Below, piece after piece: positions 1,732 through 12,527 of a stretch of DNA of 64,000 nt (its first letter is position 1; each line of letters begins with the position of its first letter). The stretch spans positions 1 through 64,000 of the forward strand of contig JAJEFG010000093.1 in NCBI GenBank assembly GCA_022820545.1, in the 5' to 3' direction. The notes beneath the pieces were generated by a model, which saw only the letters and a list, made by a program, of their open reading frames with translations, had not been told where the DNA came from and did not search any database. This DNA is from Acidobacteriota bacterium. Lineage in GTDB: Bacteria > Acidobacteriota > Vicinamibacteria > Marinacidobacterales > Marinacidobacteraceae. The translations under genes were made by a program, and so were the position numbers.

Positions 1732-3648
1732 CTACAGATCCAGGGCCGCGGGGTCGGGGGCGCCGTCGCGGATGAGGAGGCGGCGGGTGGCGGGGTCCTT
1801 GCCCATGAGGTTGACGATGAAGTTGTCCGCCGCGGGGCGGTCGGGGATCTCGATGCGGAGGAGACTTCGGGTCTCGGGATTCAGGGTCGTGTCCCAGAGC
1901 ACCTTGGGCTGCATTTCGCCGAGGCCCTTGAAGCGGGTGATCGTCGGGGACTTTCCGCCGGCCGACCGGCGGAGGATGGCTTCCTTGTCGGCCTCGTCCC
2001 GCGCCCAGTGCGACTTGCCCCCCAGGTCAACCCGGTAGAGCGGCGGCTGGGCGACGAAGACCCGTCCGGCTTCCAGCAGCTTCCACATGAACTTGACGAA
2101 ATAGGCGAGGAGCAGGGTGGTGATGTGGTGGCCGTCGGCGTCGGCGTCGGCCAGCAGCACCACCCGGCGATAGCGGAGCTTCTCCGGGTCGCAGTCTTCG
2201 CCGGTGCCGCAGCCGAGCGCGAGGGCAATGTCCCGGAGTTCCGCGTTCTCGGCGACCTTGGCGCGGGTGGCCTGCGCCGCGTTCAGGATCTTGCCCCGCA
2301 GCGGGAGCACCGCCTGGCGCATCCGGTCCCGTCCCTGCTTCGCGGACCCACCCGCCGAGTCCCCCTCCACGATGAAGATCTCCGTCTCGTCGGCGTTCCG
2401 CGAAGCGCAGTCGCTCAGCTTGCCCGGCAGGACGCTCCGGGTCCTGGTCTCGCTCTTCCGGGAGACCGCCGCCGAGGCGGCGCGGGACGCCTCGCGGGCC
2501 CGCGCGGCGAGCACGACCCGGTTCGCGATGCGCTCCGCCGCGGTCGGTGACTGGTTCAGCCAGCGCTCGAGTTCGATCCGGACGGCGGTGTCCACCGGCG
2601 CCCGCACTTCCGGGTTGTTGAGCCGGTCCTTCGTCTGTCCCTGGAACTGCGGGTTCTCAAGGAACACGCTCAGGATCGCGAGCACGCCCTCACGGATGTC
2701 TTCCGCGGCGATCGTCACGCCCCGCGGGATCAGCGAATGGGTTTCGAGGTAGTTCCGGACCGCTTTCGCAAGCCCGTCGCGAAGGCCCGTCTCGTGCGAC
2801 CCCCCGAATCCGGTCGGGATCCCGTTGACGTAGCTGCGGAACTCCTCGCGCGGCGCCTCGGTCCAGCCGAGCACGATTTCGAGGCGCCCATCGCCGTTCA
2901 GGGGATCGCGCGAGAGCTCGAAGGCTGCCTCGTGGGCCAGGGTCAGCTTTCGGTCCCCGATCACCGCGTCGAAGTAGTCCGGCAGGCCGCGCGCCTGACG
3001 CCACTCCTCCTGTTTCCCGGACGCCTCGTCCGTGAACGTAAGTTGAAGACCCTTGTGGAGATAACTGGTCTCGGTCATCCGGGCGGCGATCCGCTCCGCA
3101 TCCAGTTTCGGCTCCGGGAAAATCTGCGGGTCGGGCGTGAAGGTGATCTCCGTGCCGTTCCCCTTCCCCGACCCGGTTTCCTTCATCTTGCCGAGGGGCT
3201 TGCCACGGCGAAAACGCATCTCCCACTGCCGCCGGTTCCGCCGGACCTTCGCCGTCAACGAGGAACTGAGGGCGTTCACCACCGAGGCCCCGACGCCGTG
3301 CAGCCCGCCGGAAGCGTGGTACGCGCCCCGGTCGAACTTCCCCCCGGCGTGCAGCGTGGTGAGGATCACTTCCAGCGCCGGCTTGCCCGAGGGCTTGTGG
3401 ACATCCACGGGAATCCCGCGGCCGTTGTCCTTCACGGTGACCGATCCGTCGCGCTTCAGGGTGACGTCGATCCGCGAGGCATGCCCGTTCATCGCCTCGT
3501 CCACGCTGTTGTCGAGGATTTCCCAGACGAGGTGGTGGAGTCCCTCGACGTCGGTGCCCCCGATGTACATGGCCGGGCGCTTCCGCACCGGCGCAAGGCC
3601 CTCGAGGACGGTGATGTCGCGGGCGGTGTATCTCTGCCCGTTGCTCAC
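1732..3648 (-). CDS. parE: Type IIA topoisomerase subunit B (ParE/GyrB)
   Basis: 638-residue ATPase subunit of a type II topoisomerase. In order it shows the GHKL ATPase domain ([30 protein letters not shown]), the transducer region, the TOPRIM domain with EGDSAGG and [12 protein letters not shown], and the C-terminal RFKGLGEM motif. The GTG start at 3648 overlaps the stop of the upstream subunit A gene as GTGA, so the pair is probably translationally coupled. Length and pairing with a ParC-like subunit without a GyrA box suggest topoisomerase IV, which separates daughter chromosomes, but gyrase is not excluded. An upstream in-frame extension exists but lies inside the neighbour and lacks family similarity. 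Confidence 0.9.
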
Positions 3649-5996
3649 GGTGGTCCCTTCAGCGGCTGGGGCAGGGCGATTTCGGTCTTGACCCTTTCGA
3701 AGCCCGCCTTGTTCACCAGTTGCCCCCGGCGGCCGCGGGCGCCCACCTTGAACCGGTCGCCCCGGGCGATCACTCGCGTGCCTCCACCGCGCGTCTCGAC
3801 CACGAGCGGCTCCTTGCGCCGGGCGACGCGGAACCCGATCACCCGATCTCCGGGCCCGAGGTTGATCGCCTTCACGCCCAGCCCGGCGCCCGACAGCACG
3901 TTGATCTCTTCGACATCGCAAAGGAGCGCCCGGCCGTCGCGGGTCGCCAGGATGAGCGTGTCCTCGCCGGTGGTGAGCTCCGCCCCGATGATCTCATCGC
4001 CCTCCTTCAACCGCGCGAACCGCCGTCCGTTCCGCTTCGAGGGCTGGAGGAAGTCCTCCAGGCTGAACCGGAGGGCGTAGCCGCTCTTCGTGAGCGCGAT
4101 CGCGTGGCGCTCGGGCACCCCGCCGCCCTCGGTGGAGACCGCGCCGTCAAGTCCCCGGGAATCGAGGCCGAGCAGGCTCACGATCTGCTCGCCGTCCCGG
4201 AGCGCGAACATCTTCTGCACCGGGTCTCCGTACCCGGTCGTCGCCGACACGTCCGCCAGCCGGGCGGTGAAGGCGGTTCCCTGGGACGAGAAGAGGATGA
4301 ACGGCGCGCGGGTGCTGCCCGGCTGGAGCGCAATGACCTCGTCGCCCTCGCGGAGCCGCAGCTTGTCCAGTTCGCGGATCTCGCGCTGGCGCTTGATCCA
4401 GCCGTCGCGGGTGAGGACCAGGGTGGTGTCCTCGGCGAGGATGAAATCCTCTTCCGCGAACTCGGCCACCTCGTCCGATTCCGCGAATTCCGTGCGGCGT
4501 TCCGCCTCGATCCAGGGGCGGTCGCGGATCTCGGCGAGTTCCTCCCGGATCAGCCCCCTGATCGCCTCCTCGCTCCCCAGCAGGCGCTTCACCTCGCGAA
4601 GCCGCTTCTTCCGCTCCTTCGCCTCGTCGAGGATGACCCGAATCTCGAGGCGCGCGAGGCGGTAGATCCTGAGTTCGAGCACCGCGTCGGTCTGCTCCCG
4701 GTCGAGCGGCAGCTCGGCCATGATCTTCGCGGCGGCGTCGGCCTTGCCGTCGGAAGCGCGCACGATCTTCAGGATCCGGTCCAGAGCGTCGAAGACCTTC
4801 CGGAACCCCTCGAGGATGTGGAGCCTGCCGTCCAGCTTGCGGCGCTTGTCCTCGAGCCGGCGCCGCACCACCTCGCGCCGGAAGTCCAGAAAATCCTGAA
4901 GCAGGGTGCGGAGGCCGACTCGTTCCGGGATTCCTCCCTCGGAACGGTCGAAACGGAGACACGTCAGGTCCACGGGCACCGAGGACTGGAGCGGGGTGCG
5001 CTTGTAGAGGAAAGCGAGGACCTTGTCCTGATCGACGTCCTTCCTCACCTCCAGCCGGATCTGGACGTCGTCGGTCGAGAGATCGCTGACGTCGAGGAGC
5101 GCCGGGAGCGACCGGTCGGCCACGATCTCCCCGAGACGCTGAACGAGCTGCGCCTTGTTCACGCCGTAGGGGACCGAGGTGATGAACAGCGTGCGGACGT
5201 GGCGCCGCGTCCCACCGTCCCTGACACTGCCGCGAACGCGAATGGACCCCTTCCCTTCCTCGTAGATCTCCGCGCGTCGCTCGGGCGGATCGAGGATCTC
5301 GCCGCCGGTCGGGAAGTCGGGCCCCCTGACCGTCTCCGCCAGCTCGCGGGAGCCGAGCGACGGATCGTCCAGCAGCCGGATGAGCGCCTCCACGACCTCG
5401 AAGAGATTGTGGGGCGGAATGCTGGTGGCGACACCGACCGCGATCCCGGTGGATCCATTGACGAGCAGCAGCGGCAGCCGGGTGGGCAGGACGACCGGCT
5501 CGGTGCGGGTCCCGTCGTAAGTCGGACGGTGGGGAACGGTGTCCAGACCGATCTCCCCGAGAACGTCCTCGGCCGCCTCGGCGAGCCGGCACTCCGTGTA
5601 CCGCATCGCGGCCGCCGGATCGCCGTCGAGCGACCCGAAGTTGCCGGCGCCTTCGATCAGGGGCAACCGCGACGCGAAAGGCTGCGCCATCCGCACCAGC
5701 GCCTCGTAGATCGCCGCGTCGCCGTGCGGGTGGTAGCCCCCCATCACGTCGCCCACCACCTTGGCGCATTTGCGGAAACGGCCGTCGGCGCGGAGCCCCT
5801 GGCGCCACATGGTGGTCAGGATCCGCCGCTGCACCGGCTTCAGGCCGTCCCGCACGTCGGGTAGCGCCCGGCTGCCGATGACCGACAGCGCGTAGGTCCG
5901 GTAACGGTCCTGGACGACCTCTCCGAGAGGGGCCGGAAGTCCGTTCGTCCCGTTATCGGTCCCGAGCGGCAGGGGGCGCTGTCGTGATCGCGCCAC
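3645..5996 (-). CDS. parC: Type IIA topoisomerase subunit A (ParC-like)
   Basis: 783-residue DNA breakage-reunion subunit. The catalytic tyrosine is Y133 in AMRYTECRL, preceded by the conserved [12 protein letters not shown] loop (residues 82-93) and GNFGS. A long coiled-coil arm follows (about residues 360-470), then a C-terminal beta-pinwheel region. I do not see the gyrase-specific QRRGGKG box; a GARGRRGQ stretch near the C terminus is only a loose resemblance. Together with the adjacent subunit B gene this favours topoisomerase IV over gyrase. GTG start. The gene is divergent from the DUF2752 gene, with 45 bp between the starts, so promoters for both must lie in that gap. Confidence 0.9.
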
Positions 5997-6041
5997 GGGT
6001 CAACCCCCGGCCCGAGGGCAGCGGGGTTCGAAGGGGAGACA

Positions 6042-6422
6042 ATGGTCGCCGTGCACAGCGGCCGTCATCAGGGTCTGGCGCTCCTCGCGCTGTCGTTGAT
6101 CAGCCTGGGCGCCGCCGCCCTCCTCCGGGACCTGGCTCCCGACGTCACCCTCTGCGGCGTCAAGGCCCTCTCCGGACTGCCCTGCCCCTTCTGCGGCGGG
6201 GTCCGCGCCACCGCGGCGCTCGGGCGAGGGTCACTGCTGGAAGCGTTCGCCTGGAATCCCGCGGTCACCCTGCTCCACGCCGGGATGCTCACGAGCGGAG
6301 CCGCGCTGGTCCTCGGCCAAACGCCGGTCTGGCTCACGCCGGAGCGCCAGCGGTTCGTGTTCCGCGCGGTCCTCGTCATCCTGCTGGCCAACTGGCTGTA
6401 CCTCGTCGCCGCCGGACGCTGA
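6042..6422 (+). CDS. DUF2752 membrane protein
   Basis: 126-residue small membrane protein. Hydrophobic segments lie at about residues 12-30, 72-90 and 106-123. The signature PCPFCGGVRATAALGRG (about residues 46-62) matches the Cys-x-x-Cys-Gly-Gly core of DUF2752. The function of the family is unknown. AGGGGAGACA before the ATG is a good ribosome binding site. It converges on a DUF1573 protein, another small Cys-containing envelope protein; the two families are often found near each other, so a shared role is possible but not shown. Confidence 0.8.
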   Translation: MVAVHSGRHQGLALLALSLISLGAAALLRDLAPDVTLCGVKALSGLPCPFCGGVRATAALGRGSLLEAFAWNPAVTLLHAGMLTSGAALVLGQTPVWLTPERQRFVFRAVLVILLANWLYLVAAGR

Positions 6423-6452
6423 GGGCGCCCGGCCAAATCCGACGCGCGCCGG

Positions 6453-6857
6453 TCAAGGGACGTCTTCCACATAGACGCGTACCTTGAGCCGCGTCCTGCT
6501 CCGCGAGTCGTTGGAACGGATGGTCAGCCAGCGTTCGAGCACCCCCCGGTAACGCCGGGTCTCCAGGGTCACCCGGAGCGTCCCGGACTCTCCGGGCGGG
6601 ATCACCGTGCGGTCGGTCACCGCGGCGGCGCAGGCGCACGCCGACGCGATGCGTCCGATCTCGAGATCCCGGCTTCCGGTGTTCTTCAGCGCGAACTCGT
6701 GGACCAGCACTTTCCCGGGCGCCGCCCGTCCGAAATCCCACTCACCGGGCTCGATCTCGAGCCGCGGGCCGCGCTGCCACACGTTCCCGGCAGCGCCCGC
6801 CAGACTCCCGAGAAGGATGGCGGCGAGAAGGCAATTCGGAAGGAGATGCCGCTTCAA
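6453..6857 (-). CDS. DUF1573 secreted/anchored protein
   Basis: 134-residue protein with an N-terminal hydrophobic signal (about residues 5-24) and an immunoglobulin-like DUF1573 domain. It contains WDFGRAAPGKVLVHEFALKN, the CACA pair of cysteines typical of the family, and PPGESGTL. It probably acts in the periplasm or is anchored to the membrane; the molecular role is unknown. Start is TTG, supported by CAGGAGGA nine bases upstream, and it lies five bases after the stop of the 93-residue gene, so it is probably the last gene of the sigma/STAS operon. Confidence 0.8.
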   Translation of the reverse strand: MKRHLLPNCLLAAILLGSLAGAAGNVWQRGPRLEIEPGEWDFGRAAPGKVLVHEFALKNTGSRDLEIGRIASACACAAAVTDRTVIPPGESGTLRVTLETRRYRGVLERWLTIRSNDSRSRTRLKVRVYVEDVP

Positions 6858-6861
6858 CCGA

Positions 6862-7143
6862 TCAGTCCTCCTGATCCGGGGTTTCGACCATCCTGAGGAA
6901 CGCCGCGAGCCGCTCGTTCTCGTAGCGGACGACGTTCAGGAACAGGCTTTCTATCAGGTAGCTGCGGCGCTCGCCGGCGTCCATTTCGTCCACCAGGTGG
7001 CTGATCTCGCGGGTCATGGCCTCGTAAGTGTTGCGGAACTCGCTGCGCACCGAGACCTCGCGGTAGAGCGCCTCCAGAATCGCGAGCAGGTCGCCGTCCA
7101 GCTCGACTTCGCGACCGCCCTGCATTCGAATGGATCGCATCAT
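6862..7143 (-). CDS. Unknown 93-residue helical protein in sigma/STAS operon
   Basis: Not recognised. 93 residues, acidic, predicted mostly helical, with no membrane segment or signal. The ATG at 7143 overlaps the STAS gene stop as ATGA, so it is co-translated with that gene. It may be a partner of the STAS antagonist or of the sigma factor; an anti-sigma kinase would be longer and carry an HATPase domain, which this lacks. A longer in-frame reading to 7320 overlaps the STAS gene and is not used. Confidence 0.65.
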   Translation of the reverse strand: MMRSIRMQGGREVELDGDLLAILEALYREVSVRSEFRNTYEAMTREISHLVDEMDAGERRSYLIESLFLNVVRYENERLAAFLRMVETPDQED

Positions 7144-7499
7144 TCGTTCCCCCCGGTACTTCCGGCGAGTGCGCGAACCGCGTCCTCCGCCGATCCGTAG
7201 ATTGGAATGAACTCGTGGGCGCCGGTCATTCGGAGCATCCTCTCCACGCGGTCCAGGACCCCGGCGAGAGCGATGCGGCCCTGCTTCGCCGAGGCGCGCC
7301 GGTAGAGGTCCATGAGACACCCGATCGCGGCGGAATCCAGATAGTTCACCGGGGAGAGGTCGAAGACCACCGCAGGCCGGTCCTCCTCGAGGTGCGGACC
7401 GACCTGATCCACGAAGGAATCGAGGGTGGCGTAGACGAGACGTGCGACTTCGACGCGAACCACTACGGCGGCGCCGTCGGTGCGAGTGCTGACCTTCAT
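7140..7499 (-). CDS. STAS-domain anti-sigma factor antagonist
   Basis: 119-residue single STAS domain, SpoIIAA/RsbV type. Such proteins release a sigma factor by binding its anti-sigma factor and are switched off by phosphorylation of a conserved serine. Here that serine is S56 in NYLDSAAIGCL, and the domain continues with the usual RIALAGV strand. The ATG at 7499 overlaps the sigma-factor stop (ATGA) and its own stop overlaps the next ATG, so it is the middle of a tightly coupled operon. No anti-sigma kinase is seen nearby. Confidence 0.85.
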   Translation of the reverse strand: MKVSTRTDGAAVVVRVEVARLVYATLDSFVDQVGPHLEEDRPAVVFDLSPVNYLDSAAIGCLMDLYRRASAKQGRIALAGVLDRVERMLRMTGAHEFIPIYGSAEDAVRALAGSTGGNE

Positions 7500-8185
7500 G
7501 ACATGGATCTCCGCCCGGCGGTGGAACCGGGTGGCCGGCCGGGGCTGTTCCGGGCGGCGACGAGGAGGCGCTTCAACTCGGCGCGCCCCCGGTGGATGCG
7601 GCTCTTGACGGTGCCTTCGGGGACGCCGAGGCGCTCACAGATCTCTTCATAGGGCAACTCCTGAAAGAACCGGAGCTGCACCACTTCCCGGAGCTTGGGC
7701 GAAAGCCCGTCGAGCGCCTTGAGAAGGCTGGCCCGCGCCTCGCGCTGCTCCAGCAGGCGGTCCGGGCCGAGAAGCGCACTTCCCGGCGTCCGCTCGAGCG
7801 GGGCTTCCTCGGGGAGAAGCCGCTGGCGCTCGCGGACCTTCGTCCGGTAGTGGTCGATGCAGTAATTGCGGGCGACCGAGTTCAGCCACACGGCGAAGTG
7901 CGCCCGCGGATCGAAACGGTCCAGTTGCCGGTAGACCCTGACGATGATCTCGTGGGTCAGTTCCTCGGCTTCCTGATACTGGCCGGTGAACCGGTACGCC
8001 AGGGAGAAGAGCCTCCGCCGATGCCGGCCGATGAGGTCGGCCCACGCGGTGTCGGGGTCCAGCTCACCGGCCCGCAGGGCTCGGATGGTCGCGATGTCCT
8101 GCGAATTGCGAAGGTCATCCGATCCGGGTCCGTCGCTGGAACCGGGGACAACCGGGGTCGGGACGATGGGCGTGAGCTCGGTCAG
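7496..8185 (-). CDS. ECF-type RNA polymerase sigma factor, possible CTG start
   Basis: About 229 residues. Region 2 is clear (LIGRHRRRLFSLAYRFTG, then the EAEELTHEI acidic stretch and AVWLNSVARNYCIDHYR) and region 4 carries LREVVQLRFFQELPYEEIC with GTVKSRIHRGRAELKRLL. No ATG, GTG or TTG lies in frame upstream of region 2; the frame is open to 8272. GC-rich third positions begin right after the nuclease stop, so I propose CTG at 8185, eight bases past that stop, giving a Pro-rich leader. An out-of-frame ATG at 8118 means a one-base error is the alternative. The start coordinate is therefore uncertain; the identity is not. Confidence 0.75.
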   Translation of the reverse strand: MTELTPIVPTPVVPGSSDGPGSDDLRNSQDIATIRALRAGELDPDTAWADLIGRHRRRLFSLAYRFTGQYQEAEELTHEIIVRVYRQLDRFDPRAHFAVWLNSVARNYCIDHYRTKVRERQRLLPEEAPLERTPGSALLGPDRLLEQREARASLLKALDGLSPKLREVVQLRFFQELPYEEICERLGVPEGTVKSRIHRGRAELKRLLVAARNSPGRPPGSTAGRRSMS

Positions 8186-9054: not shown

Positions 9055-9831
9055 CTAGCGAGAGGCAGCCGATACGGCGCGGGCCACGGTCAGGACGTCC
9101 ACGGGCCCGGCGCCCGCCCGGATCAGCGCCCGGACCGCCGCCTCGACCGTGCTCCCGGTGGTGAACACGTCGTCCACCAGCAGGAGGGGCCGGCCGGCGA
9201 GCCGCTCGGGCAGCCGCCCCGCCCGGAACGCTCCCCGCACGTTGCGCCGGCGGGCGCTCGGGCTGACCAGCGTCTGCGGTGGCCGGGACCGCCGGCGCAA
9301 CACGCCGCGAACCAGCGGAATCCCGAGCTCGCGGGTGACCTGCCGGGCCAGCAACTCGGCCTGGTTGAAACCGCGGCGCCTGCCCCGCCAGAACGGCACC
9401 GGAACCGCGACGACCGCGGCCGGGAACTCCCCCGCGGCCGAGACGCCGTGATTCCGGGAGGCACGGCGAAAGGCCGCAATGGCGGGCCGCGCCAGAAGCT
9501 CGGCGAGAACCTCCCGCCGCCGGAACTTGAGCTCCAGCAGGGCGCGCTGGAACACGCCCTCGTACGGCGCGGCGGCCACCGCCATCCGGAAGGGCCGCCG
9601 TCGCGCCCGGCACTCGCCGCAGCGGCCCGGCGCCGCGGAGGGCGCGAGGAACAGGCCGCACCTGGGACACGCGGGAACGGCAAGCGGGCGGAGGCAGGCG
9701 GCGCACTCGGGGCACGCCGGGCCCGCCAGCGGATCGGCGAGCGGCCCGTCGCAGAGGCAGCAGCCCTGGGGAAAGAGGAGCTGTCCGAAGGCGCGCCGGC
9801 ATCGCACCGGAAACGGAGGTTGGGCGGACAC
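9055..9831 (-). CDS. comF: ComF family phosphoribosyltransferase-like protein
   Basis: 258 residues. The N-terminal part is rich in paired cysteines (CCLC, CPEC, CPRC, CGEC), as in the zinc-binding domain of ComF. The C-terminal part is a PRTase domain with the PRPP-binding motif LLLVDDVFTTGST around residue 220. ComF proteins assist DNA uptake in competent bacteria, but in many genomes the role is unknown. GTG start. It lies between a membrane protein and a P1-nuclease-like protein on the same strand. Confidence 0.85.
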   Translation of the reverse strand: MSAQPPFPVRCRRAFGQLLFPQGCCLCDGPLADPLAGPACPECAACLRPLAVPACPRCGLFLAPSAAPGRCGECRARRRPFRMAVAAAPYEGVFQRALLELKFRRREVLAELLARPAIAAFRRASRNHGVSAAGEFPAAVVAVPVPFWRGRRRGFNQAELLARQVTRELGIPLVRGVLRRRSRPPQTLVSPSARRRNVRGAFRAGRLPERLAGRPLLLVDDVFTTGSTVEAAVRALIRAGAGPVDVLTVARAVSAASR

Positions 9832-9867: not shown

Positions 9868-10686
9868 CTACAGGATCCGGTAGTCCGTGACCACACCCGT
9901 AGCGCAGAGCCGAACGTAGACGTCCGTGACCATCACCCAGACCAGGCTGGCCCAGGCGAAGCCCATGTGCCGGAGGTTGAACCAGCTCGTGCACTCGTAG
10001 GCGCAGCGGCGGAGCGGGCGCCCCGAGAGCCGGTCGAGAAACCCGCCGGCGAGGTGGCGCAGGGAATGACATCCCAAGGTGTAGCCGGCGAGCAGCGCGG
10101 CGTTCAGGGCCATCACCAGGGTTCCGACGCCAAGGCCGAAGGAAACCTCGCCGGTGACCGGATCGGCGAACCGGGTTGCCCCCCAGACGTAGTAGAGGTG
10201 CAATCCGATCCAGACCAACGCGATGTAGAGGAAGTAGCGGTGGACGTTCTGCAGGATGAGCGGGAAACTGTTTTCGCCGCGGTAGGTGTTCCACGGCTTG
10301 CCCACGGTGCACGAAGCCGGACTGCCCCAGAACGCCTTGTAGTACGAGCCGCGGTAGTAGTAGCAGGTGAGCCGCAGCCCCGCCGGCGCCCAGAACAGGA
10401 ATACGCCTGGCGCCCAGGGAAGGAGGGCCGGCCAGGCGGCCGGCTTGGGCCCGAACCAGGCGTGGGGCGTATCGCCGAAGAGCACCGGGACGTGGATCGG
10501 CGAAACGTAGTTGCCGAACTCGGCCCCGTGGTGCGTGAACACCGCCCAGGTCGAGTAGATGACGAACACGCTCAGGCCCACGAAGACGCCGGTCGGAGTG
10601 ACCCACCACGGATCGCAGCGTCTCGTGACGCCGAAACTCTGCGGGGCGGGCAGGACGCCACTGAGTTGAGGGAGCGATGAGGCCAC
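9868..10686 (-). CDS. Polytopic membrane protein, possibly cytochrome b-like anchor
   Basis: 272 residues with about five membrane segments (near residues 35-50, 90-110, 150-170, 185-205 and 240-258). Notable motifs are CYYYRGSYYKAFW, QNVHRYFLY and CHSLRHLAGG; the histidines in or near membrane helices could bind heme. The pattern resembles the membrane anchor proteins found beside succinate dehydrogenase genes in some GC-rich bacteria, but no sdhA or sdhB is present here, so this is a weak inference. GTG start. Confidence 0.5.
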   Translation of the reverse strand: MASSLPQLSGVLPAPQSFGVTRRCDPWWVTPTGVFVGLSVFVIYSTWAVFTHHGAEFGNYVSPIHVPVLFGDTPHAWFGPKPAAWPALLPWAPGVFLFWAPAGLRLTCYYYRGSYYKAFWGSPASCTVGKPWNTYRGENSFPLILQNVHRYFLYIALVWIGLHLYYVWGATRFADPVTGEVSFGLGVGTLVMALNAALLAGYTLGCHSLRHLAGGFLDRLSGRPLRRCAYECTSWFNLRHMGFAWASLVWVMVTDVYVRLCATGVVTDYRIL

Positions 10687-10743: not shown

Positions 10744-12093
10744 TCAGACGACCGGAGTCGAGCCGTCGCCACCCACCGGTACGGGTCGAACCTCCTCCAC
10801 GTCGAGCCTGACCCCTCCGTAGGTTCCGCACCCGGCGCAACTGTCGTTCCAGTCCGCCTGCCGGGCGCCGCACGAGGAACAGCTGTACTCGGCGGACAGC
10901 GACGGCGCGGCGGAAATCACCTCGCGAGCCCGGATCACGGCTTCGGCGAGGTCGCCGCGGCCCTCGAGGATGCGGGAGAGACGGGCGCCCAGCGCCGGAG
11001 CGGCGTTCCGCGGCAGGTTGGCGAACGTCTTGAGGGCGTCGTCCAGCATGTAGAGGCGGTCGTAGAGCTTTCCCAGGAGGTACTGGCTCTGGGCGGGGTT
11101 TTCGGCGGATCCGATCGCACGCTTCCAGACCGAAATGGCGTCCTCCGGACAGGTCCGGTCCAGGTAGTAGTCCTGAAGCGCCGAAAGCGGCGCCGTGGCC
11201 CCGGTCTGCTCGAAAGCCTTCTGCCAGGTATCGACCGCCGCCCTCTCGTTGCCGCCCGCGAGATAGGCCTCCCCAAGACGCACCCAGGCGGGCACCGCCC
11301 CCGGATCCTCCTCGAGGATGGCCCGGAAGACCCGGGCGGCCTCGGCCGGCTCGCCCTCCTCGAGAAGCTCCTTGCCGTATCCGTGACGGAGCGACAGGGT
11401 CCGCTGCTCCTCGGCGGCGCGGGCGGAGGGAGCGACGTGCGATACGAGCTGCTGCTGGACGGAAAGGGCCGCGCGGTGCTCGCCCGACTCCACCAGGATG
11501 TCGCGCAGCCGGGCAAGGGCGGCGGTGGGAGCTTCGGGGTCCTCGGAGATGGTCTTTTCGAGCAGCGCGCGCGCCTGCTCGGGCTCTCCCATCGCGTGGC
11601 GGGCCTCCGCCAGCGCGTAGGACACCTCGTGGCTTCCACGATCCTCGGCCAGCGCCTGCTCCAGCGCCTCGGCGGCCTCCTCGGGCCGGCCGAGTTGCAT
11701 CAGGCACTCGGCCTTCCGGCGGAGCGTCTTGGGATCGGCGCCCGCGTACTCCTGCGCCGCCTCGAAGCTGAGGAGCGCCTGCGGCCACCGGCCGGAGGCC
11801 ATTTCGTCGAGCCCGTCGAGGTACAGCCGCTCACCTTCCTCGAGATCCAGGCGTCCGCGCCGGAGACGCCGCTCGCGAACCAGGCGCCGGACCCGGCCGG
11901 CCAGGTCGAAAGCCAGGGCAATCGCGGCCCCGAGACCCACGCCGGCGAACATGACCTTCCACAGTTCCACCCGGATGGGCAGGAAGAAGGGCAGCGTGAC
12001 GGTCACGAACTGGGTGTTGGACGCAACCACCAACAGAAGGAGCCCCGCCGTCACCAGCACGGCGGCTACGAACAACAGGGTGCGAATGCCCAT
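10744..12093 (-). CDS. LapA-LapB fusion protein
   Basis: 449 residues. The N-terminus looks like LapA/DUF1049: two membrane helices (about residues 5-24 and 44-63) separated by a short NTQFVTVTLPF loop and followed by an arginine-rich stretch. From about residue 85 to 390 come TPR-like helical repeats, and near residues 400-426 a rubredoxin-like zinc ribbon (CSSC ... CAGC). That second half is the layout of LapB (YciM). In Escherichia coli these are two adjacent genes that control LpxC turnover and so lipopolysaccharide amounts; here they appear as one chain. The role is inferred from the family. Confidence 0.75.
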   Translation of the reverse strand: MGIRTLLFVAAVLVTAGLLLLVVASNTQFVTVTLPFFLPIRVELWKVMFAGVGLGAAIALAFDLAGRVRRLVRERRLRRGRLDLEEGERLYLDGLDEMASGRWPQALLSFEAAQEYAGADPKTLRRKAECLMQLGRPEEAAEALEQALAEDRGSHEVSYALAEARHAMGEPEQARALLEKTISEDPEAPTAALARLRDILVESGEHRAALSVQQQLVSHVAPSARAAEEQRTLSLRHGYGKELLEEGEPAEAARVFRAILEEDPGAVPAWVRLGEAYLAGGNERAAVDTWQKAFEQTGATAPLSALQDYYLDRTCPEDAISVWKRAIGSAENPAQSQYLLGKLYDRLYMLDDALKTFANLPRNAAPALGARLSRILEGRGDLAEAVIRAREVISAAPSLSAEYSCSSCGARQADWNDSCAGCGTYGGVRLDVEEVRPVPVGGDGSTPVV

Positions 12094-12122: not shown

Positions 12123-12527
12123 CTAAGCCGTACCCGCGGCGCCGGCGGCCTCCGTACCAGGCGGCTCCGGGTACCAGCGCCCGGCATCGCCCCAGAGCTT
12201 TTCGAGCTGATACAGCTCGCGGCTCTCCGGCGAGAACACGTGCACGACGAAGTCCACGTAGTCGGCGAGCAGCCAGCCGGCCGCCGGATACCCCTCGAGG
12301 TGAATGGGCTTGCGGCCGACCCGCTCCCGGACGCGGCGTGCGACGGCGTCCACGATGGTGGTGCGGCGCCGCTCGCTGCTGGCGGTCGCGATCACGAAGA
12401 AATCGGTGAACCCGGCGAGACCGCGCAGGTCGAGCACCACGACGTCTTCGGCCTTTTCGAGTTGCGCCACCTCGGCGGAGAAGCGCGCGCAGGACTCGGC
12501 GGCGGTGTTGGGAGCGGAGTCGGTCAA
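12123..12527 (-). CDS. rsfS: Ribosome silencing factor RsfS
   Basis: 134 residues. The core LDLRGLAGFTDFFVIATASS and the later YVDFVVHVFSPESRELYQLEKLWGD segments are the RsfS/Iojap signature. RsfS binds L14 of the large subunit and blocks subunit joining when nutrients run out. The TTG start overlaps the nadD stop as TTGA. The nadD-rsfS order is conserved in many bacteria, which supports the call. Confidence 0.92.
   Translation of the reverse strand: MTDSAPNTAAESCARFSAEVAQLEKAEDVVVLDLRGLAGFTDFFVIATASSERRRTTIVDAVARRVRERVGRKPIHLEGYPAAGWLLADYVDFVVHVFSPESRELYQLEKLWGDAGRWYPEPPGTEAAGAAGTA

Follow-up and report, generated by a model that had tools for sequence, protein, structure and literature searches.

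The window analyzed here is a 64,000-nucleotide stretch of DNA from a genome of the phylum Acidobacteriota. An ORF on its reverse strand (positions 10744 to 12093) is open over its whole length and encodes a 449-amino-acid single-chain membrane protein with LapA-like and LapB-like parts, as identified from the ORF itself, Pfam, orthologues, profiles, and an AlphaFold model. We here designate the product the LapAB protein. Its orthologues are free of internal stops in all 10 genomes of the window's own family (f1) and share 91% to 94% identity within the genus and 61% to 63% identity between genera. Three parts, all on the reverse strand, were distinguished: (i) an N-terminal, LapA-like two-helix hairpin (residues 1 to 85; 11839 to 12093), followed by a basic juxtamembrane helix and assigned from the AlphaFold model and the LapA_dom profile; (ii) a LapB-like TPR superhelix (residues 86 to 398; 10900 to 11838), assigned from Pfam and from profile and structure matches; and (iii) a rubredoxin-like zinc ribbon (residues 399 to 430; 10804 to 10899), marked by invariant cysteines at positions 405, 408, 419, and 422 and by Tyr425.

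Directly upstream of the LapAB gene, across a 29-base gap, lies rsfS (12123 to 12527, reverse strand; ORF and synteny), and the two genes are likely cotranscribed. The adjoining genes were named from their sequences, and we take them to form the conserved run rplU-rpmA-obgE-nadD-rsfS. Directly downstream, positions 9868 to 10686 of the reverse strand encode a 272-amino-acid membrane protein with no Pfam match, which presumably resembles a cytochrome b type subunit. Beyond it is a comF-like phosphoribosyltransferase gene (9055 to 9831, reverse strand; synteny and Pfam), used here as the downstream synteny marker. A conserved cluster at 6453 to 7891 (reverse strand) comprises the genes for a DUF1573 protein, a small unknown protein, a STAS protein, and a sigma factor; the sigma factor ORF in the window is short (131 amino acids) and lacks most of region 2. 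This cluster adjoins the former place of lpxC.

In the sister family (f2), the order is gyrB-gyrA-(Yip1, SDR)-lpxC-DUF1573-STAS-sigma factor-comF-LapAB-(sigma-54 activator)-rsfS-nadD-obgE-rpmA-rplU, with some f2 contigs spanning only part of this run. The window has the same order minus lpxC, the SDR and Yip1 genes, and the activator gene, and plus a DUF2752 ORF and the membrane protein gene at 9868 to 10686. The former lpxC place (5997 to 6452) was located on the basis of synteny, Pfam, tblastn, and LpxC positions; it lies between gyrA (3645 to 5996, reverse strand; synteny and Pfam), which is the marker flanking the lost gene, and the DUF1573 gene. Family f2 has lpxC there, together with an SDR gene and a Yip1 gene in those of its loci that are most complete. 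All that this place holds in the window is a short, 126-amino-acid DUF2752 ORF (6042 to 6422, forward strand; 43.7 bits), which is 42% identical to an ORF at the corresponding place of genome G009. No lpxC remnant was detected in the window by tblastn or Pfam.

The lpxC gene of f2 is located ~4 kb from the LapAB gene. We rejected this adjacency as a sign of a general functional link, since the two genes are mostly on different contigs elsewhere in the phylum, and the 4-kb distance in f2 is thus weak evidence. All four f2 loci also have a sigma-54 activator gene (AAA and Fis-type HTH domains) between rsfS and the LapAB gene (L040:5934-6905, forward strand; equivalents in L038, L039, and L041), and this gene is missing in f1. 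It is possible that the activator regulates the LapAB gene in f2.

Parts of the LapAB protein

The AlphaFold model, built from nine input sequences (mean pLDDT, 81.5), contains a helix at residues 2 to 25, a short beta hairpin at 29 to 43, a long helix at 44 to 99, TPR helices from residue 103 onward, and a small, zinc-ribbon-like beta element at the C-terminal end. The membrane part is less sure, with block pLDDT values of 51 to 75. Two N-terminal hydrophobic helices are present in the model (2 to 25 and the start of 44 to 99), not the single one of LapB. The sequence past the second helix is strongly basic, which fits a hairpin whose two ends would both lie in the cytoplasm.

The TPRs of the window protein were recognized by Pfam (TPR_19, 7.2e-28), and the Pfam scan did not recognize its ribbon. 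At E values of up to 1, the Zn_ribbon_LapB profile matched 9 of 13 f1 and f2 orthologues and 25 of 27 orthologues from the rest of the phylum, and the four cysteines are invariant in all 13 aligned f1 and f2 orthologues and in the 27 phylum orthologues. In a profile-profile comparison, the 13 f1 and f2 orthologues matched Escherichia coli LapB over residues 86 to 429, including the ribbon (probability, 97.7), and the 27 phylum orthologues reached 99.3%; the profile of the latter matches full LapB chains in a single stretch (67 to 433). The NCBIfam LapB models also matched 27 of the 27 phylum orthologues, the displayed scores being far below the cutoffs, and the window protein scored 39.7 bits against the LapB equivalog model (cutoff, 363). 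A phmmer search of solved structures with the window protein retrieved mostly designed TPR proteins, so that its sequence alone is of little help. After structural realignment, LapB entries occupied the first four rows (Z scores of 20.4 to 22.3), with 7t6d at 22.3 over model residues 49 to 436 and 9up5, 4zlh, and 8v24 at 20.4 to 20.9; the margin to the next TPR proteins (19.4 and 19.0) was narrow, and the native Foldseek order placed other TPR proteins ahead of LapB. The LapB-like nature of the TPR and ribbon part of the window protein was thereby confirmed.

The preliminary description had read the ORF as LapA and LapB fused in one chain, a reading for which it named a DUF1049 match within the first 80 residues as the check. 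The LapB-like body stands, and the hairpin is LapA-like at a score below the cutoff. LapA_dom (PF06305; cutoff, 28 bits) gave 15.7 bits on the whole window protein and a borderline 18.8 bits (E = 0.0016) on its N terminus alone, and some orthologues exceed the cutoff, including two of the four f2 N termini (L021 and L022; 31.6 and 34.2 bits). At E values of up to 1, LapA_dom was found in 13 of 13 f1 and f2 orthologues and in 18 of 27 phylum orthologues; PF06305 is promiscuous at high E values, matching 14 of 14 control genomes (5 above the cutoff) at E values of up to 10. The score of E. coli LapA against a profile built from 41 N termini was 17.9 bits, which none of 2,000 topology-preserving shuffles reached; with f1 removed from the hairpin profile, 28 of 2,000 shuffles reached the score of E. 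coli LapA. When profiles were compared directly with E. coli LapA, the values were unconvincing (34.6% and 12.9%). The hairpin may be LapA-like at the family level, a reading that we hold with moderate confidence and that is the weaker side of the proposed fusion. An end-to-end fusion was rejected because the chain has only two membrane helices instead of two from LapA and one from LapB. Since the membrane helix of LapB itself aligns with the second of these two, LapB with a LapA-like hairpin anchor is a more exact description than a head-to-tail fusion.

The full-length window protein scored higher with HemY_N (21.8 bits; Pfam cutoff, 31) than with LapA_dom, as might be expected if it were a TPR protein of the HemY type, or of another kind with two membrane helices, and unrelated to LapA and LapB. 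However, when N termini were scanned alone, LapA_dom was ahead of HemY_N in seven of seven, and HemY_N reached at most 17.7 bits. In addition, E. coli HemY matches the TPR columns only, its N terminus scoring like its own shuffles, and the zinc ribbon and the whole-length match belong to LapB. We rejected HemY as the origin of the hairpin and consider a HemY-type or other unrelated identity of the protein very improbable.

Distribution of the architecture and of lipid A genes

The single-chain architecture is widespread. The profile of the 13 orthologues matched 117 of 396 phylum genomes, and 108 other genomes remain once the window's own genome and 8 weaker partial matches are set aside; in 89 of the 108, the match begins no later than profile position 10 and ends no earlier than position 427, which is nearly full coverage. 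These phylum counts are lower bounds, four candidates having been scored per genome. Among 46 class relatives outside the order (G014 to G059), there were just four partial TPR matches. In a tree with a midpoint root, chosen for display only, f1 and f2 group together with full support and separately from the other members of the phylum. The tree, the alignments, and the rate tests did not include L064 (unclear start) or L086 (truncated). Most phylum orthologues (e.g., L058 to L063) have a conserved tail of approximately EELGIS-APVY after the zinc ribbon, which f1 and f2 lack. In Acidobacteriota, this is an old and common architecture and, with 108 other genomes carrying it, no local accident.

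Lipid A control in the window's lineage, as the preliminary description had it, is not borne out by the gene content of f1. LpxC, LpxB, LpxD, and WaaA were each found in none of the 10 f1 genomes, seven of which are at least 90% complete. In f2 (75% to 97% complete), the corresponding counts are 4, 2, 3, and 4 of 4 genomes; LpxC, LpxB, and LpxD were found in 45, 44, and 42 of the 46 class relatives, respectively, and WaaA was found in 9 of 9 others tested. Outside f1, LpxC accompanies the LapAB protein in 78 of 80 genomes tested and in 48 of 48 of good quality, the two misses being 63% and 67% complete; the 80 were drawn from the 108 by leaving out 28 of the 32 members of family f35. FtsH was identified in 8 of 10 f1 genomes (misses 66% and 87% complete; L092:16247-18169 in the window's own genome) and LptFG in 9 of 10. 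LptD of the window's own genome (L092:5019-7295) lies 9 kb from ftsH and was found through synteny and PF19838 (59.4 bits); it is 35.7% identical to the sister's. PF04453 was too weak for LptD in f1, detecting it in five of the 10 genomes and not in the window's own.

Based on the absence of these four genes, lipid A synthesis appears to have been lost in f1. Could the genes instead be missing only from incomplete drafts, with the LapAB protein controlling lipid A synthesis via LpxC as E. coli LapB does? The LapB-like fold, the coexistence with LpxC elsewhere in the phylum, and the ~4-kb distance to lpxC in f2 would all agree with this. It is nevertheless highly unlikely: four pathway genes are each absent from every f1 genome, intact sequence bridges the lpxC place in the window, and f2 genomes of 75% to 97% completeness all have LpxC. 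A draft-genome artifact was rejected on the same 10-of-10 absence, the collinear bridged block, and the lack of a remnant. In lineages that do have LpxC, its control by the single-chain protein is plausible by homology.

Sequence change and retention in f1

The LapAB protein is under purifying selection in f1. The omega value of its gene within the genus is 0.12 over 28 pairs; the membrane, TPR, and ribbon parts have values of 0.06, 0.09, and 0.45, respectively. Few 32-residue segments in the genus vary as much as the ribbon (0.5% of segments, versus 4.3% in family f31); this is unusual compared with nine other groups, f31, which has LpxC, being similar. The ribbon/TPR difference is 4.36 in the genus versus 2.48 in f31, and it is 1.27 between the three f1 genera. 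Ribbon relaxation was therefore not accepted as proving that a contact with LpxC was lost; a relaxed LpxC-facing ribbon beside constrained membrane and TPR parts is suggestive only.

Position 425, Tyr in the window protein, is Tyr or Phe in all 10 f1 genomes and Trp in all 31 f2 and phylum orthologues. The 31 comparison rows, labeled as having LpxC, include L065 (G384, 63% complete), in which LpxC was not found and which is also in group f30. Of 24 columns common to at least 90% of these 31 rows and to E. coli LapB, 18 are kept in all ten f1 genomes, and Leu114, Gly128, Trp206, and Trp425 are lost in all ten. The fraction of conserved columns lost is highest in f1 among 11 families (16 of 62), compared with 15 of 71 in f31 and 11 of 70 in f2, and the f1 stem in the tree is ~3 times as long as that of the sister (1.24 versus 0.42). 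The between/within ratio of divergence is 3.22 for the LapAB gene, inside the range of eight neighboring genes (1.76 to 3.54), and relaxed evolution resulting from lpxC loss was rejected on this ground. As the general divergence of the block is similar, the column changes in f1 may be mere distance.

The changed columns, including the otherwise invariant Trp425, could be read as marks of a relic that lost its job along with lipid A and is drifting toward loss. However, the gene is intact in 10 of 10 f1 genomes, the omega values of the whole gene and of its membrane and TPR parts are low, f31 shows a similar changed fraction in the presence of LpxC, and the divergence matches that of the neighboring genes. 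We consider a drifting relic unlikely.

The LapAB protein cannot act on LpxC in f1, where LpxC is absent, and its retention despite the apparent loss of the pathway means that it probably has another job there. In E. coli, LapB uses its membrane helix to bind FtsH and its cytoplasmic part to recruit LpxC (PMC9356133); it inhibits LpxC, and its rubredoxin domain adjoins the substrate site of that enzyme (PMC13333357). We take the LapAB protein to be an inner-membrane scaffold of the LapB type that is anchored by a LapA-like pair of helices, in an old single-chain form. In most of the phylum it would, by homology, probably do the known job of LapB, the membrane part binding FtsH and the TPRs and ribbon holding LpxC, and the scaffold would probably set LpxC amount or activity. 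In f1, lipid A synthesis appears to have been lost, and the LapAB protein, FtsH, LptF, LptG, and LptD are retained. That the protein persists alongside FtsH and Lpt parts suggests a replacement target in the supply of envelope lipids; most likely, it would serve some other envelope-lipid enzyme as FtsH adaptor or scaffold, and that enzyme would supply the retained Lpt machine. The neighbors of the LapAB gene (rsfS and comF) point to no new target.

An alternative is that regulating LpxC was never the main role of the protein in Acidobacteriota. It would then be a general scaffold of the inner membrane that serves the assembly of envelope lipids or export by Lpt, with LpxC as one client where it is present. 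Its retention along with LptFG and LptD after lipid A loss agrees with this, as do the copurification of E. coli LapB with LpxA, LpxD, FabZ, YhcB, Lpt components, and WaaC and the suggestion that the Neisseria homologue Ght acts without FtsH (both according to PMC12444477). On the other hand, f1 is the only family here without LpxC, and the almost exceptionless coexistence elsewhere fits a link to LpxC. A general scaffold of this kind seems rather doubtful to us. That f1 kept a LapB-type FtsH adaptor, probably repurposed, after losing lipid A synthesis is a reading to which we give about even confidence. A more specific version is put forward tentatively, as possible but not probable: having dropped lipid A synthesis and kept the LapB-type regulator, FtsH, and the Lpt exporter, f1 would show that LapB-type proteins have a target other than LpxC, here a point of control over a surface lipid free of lipid A and carried by Lpt; the LpxC-facing ribbon would have been remodeled, and the membrane part that faces FtsH would have stayed conserved.

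The persistence of a LapB-type protein in a family that lacks the lipid A pathway deserves attention. LapB is understood as an LpxC regulator, and f1 offers a natural experiment on whether LapB also has a role independent of LpxC.

Comparison with known systems

Among the titles and opening lines of abstracts covered, no description of a LapA-LapB single chain or of lipid A loss in Acidobacteriota was found. The closest known protein is E. coli LapB (YciM), which has the same order of membrane anchor, TPR superhelix, and four-cysteine rubredoxin-like ribbon and gives an end-to-end profile match. The window protein differs from it in an extra N-terminal membrane helix and in a score far below the NCBIfam LapB cutoff; in addition, f1 lacks LpxC and has lost Trp425, Trp206, Leu114, and Gly128, residues that E. 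coli LapB has in common with nearly every other orthologue compared.

The hairpin resembles LapA (YciS, DUF1049/PF06305) in having two helices, a short beta-type loop on the periplasmic side, and a cytoplasmic helix of basic character; the Pfam cutoff is exceeded by some orthologues, and E. coli LapA beats most or all topology-preserving shuffles. Unlike LapA, which has a gene of its own, the hairpin belongs to the LapB chain; in addition, the window protein scores below the cutoff, and the direct comparison is weak. In E. coli, the translation of LapA and LapB is coupled, and the two proteins copurify (PMC7730581); whether they act as one unit is unclear according to a review (PMC12444477). 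The single-chain form elsewhere in the phylum suggests that they do.

Borrelia burgdorferi, an organism without LPS, is described as having a transport system linking the two membranes (PMC10353723); we infer a relation to Lpt, and a LapB-type protein is not mentioned in the excerpt of that source considered here. Ght, the LapB homologue of Neisseria meningitidis, has been suggested to work without FtsH-mediated LpxC degradation (PMC12444477). However, Ght still acts on LpxC, whereas f1 keeps its LapB-type protein in genomes that have no LpxC.
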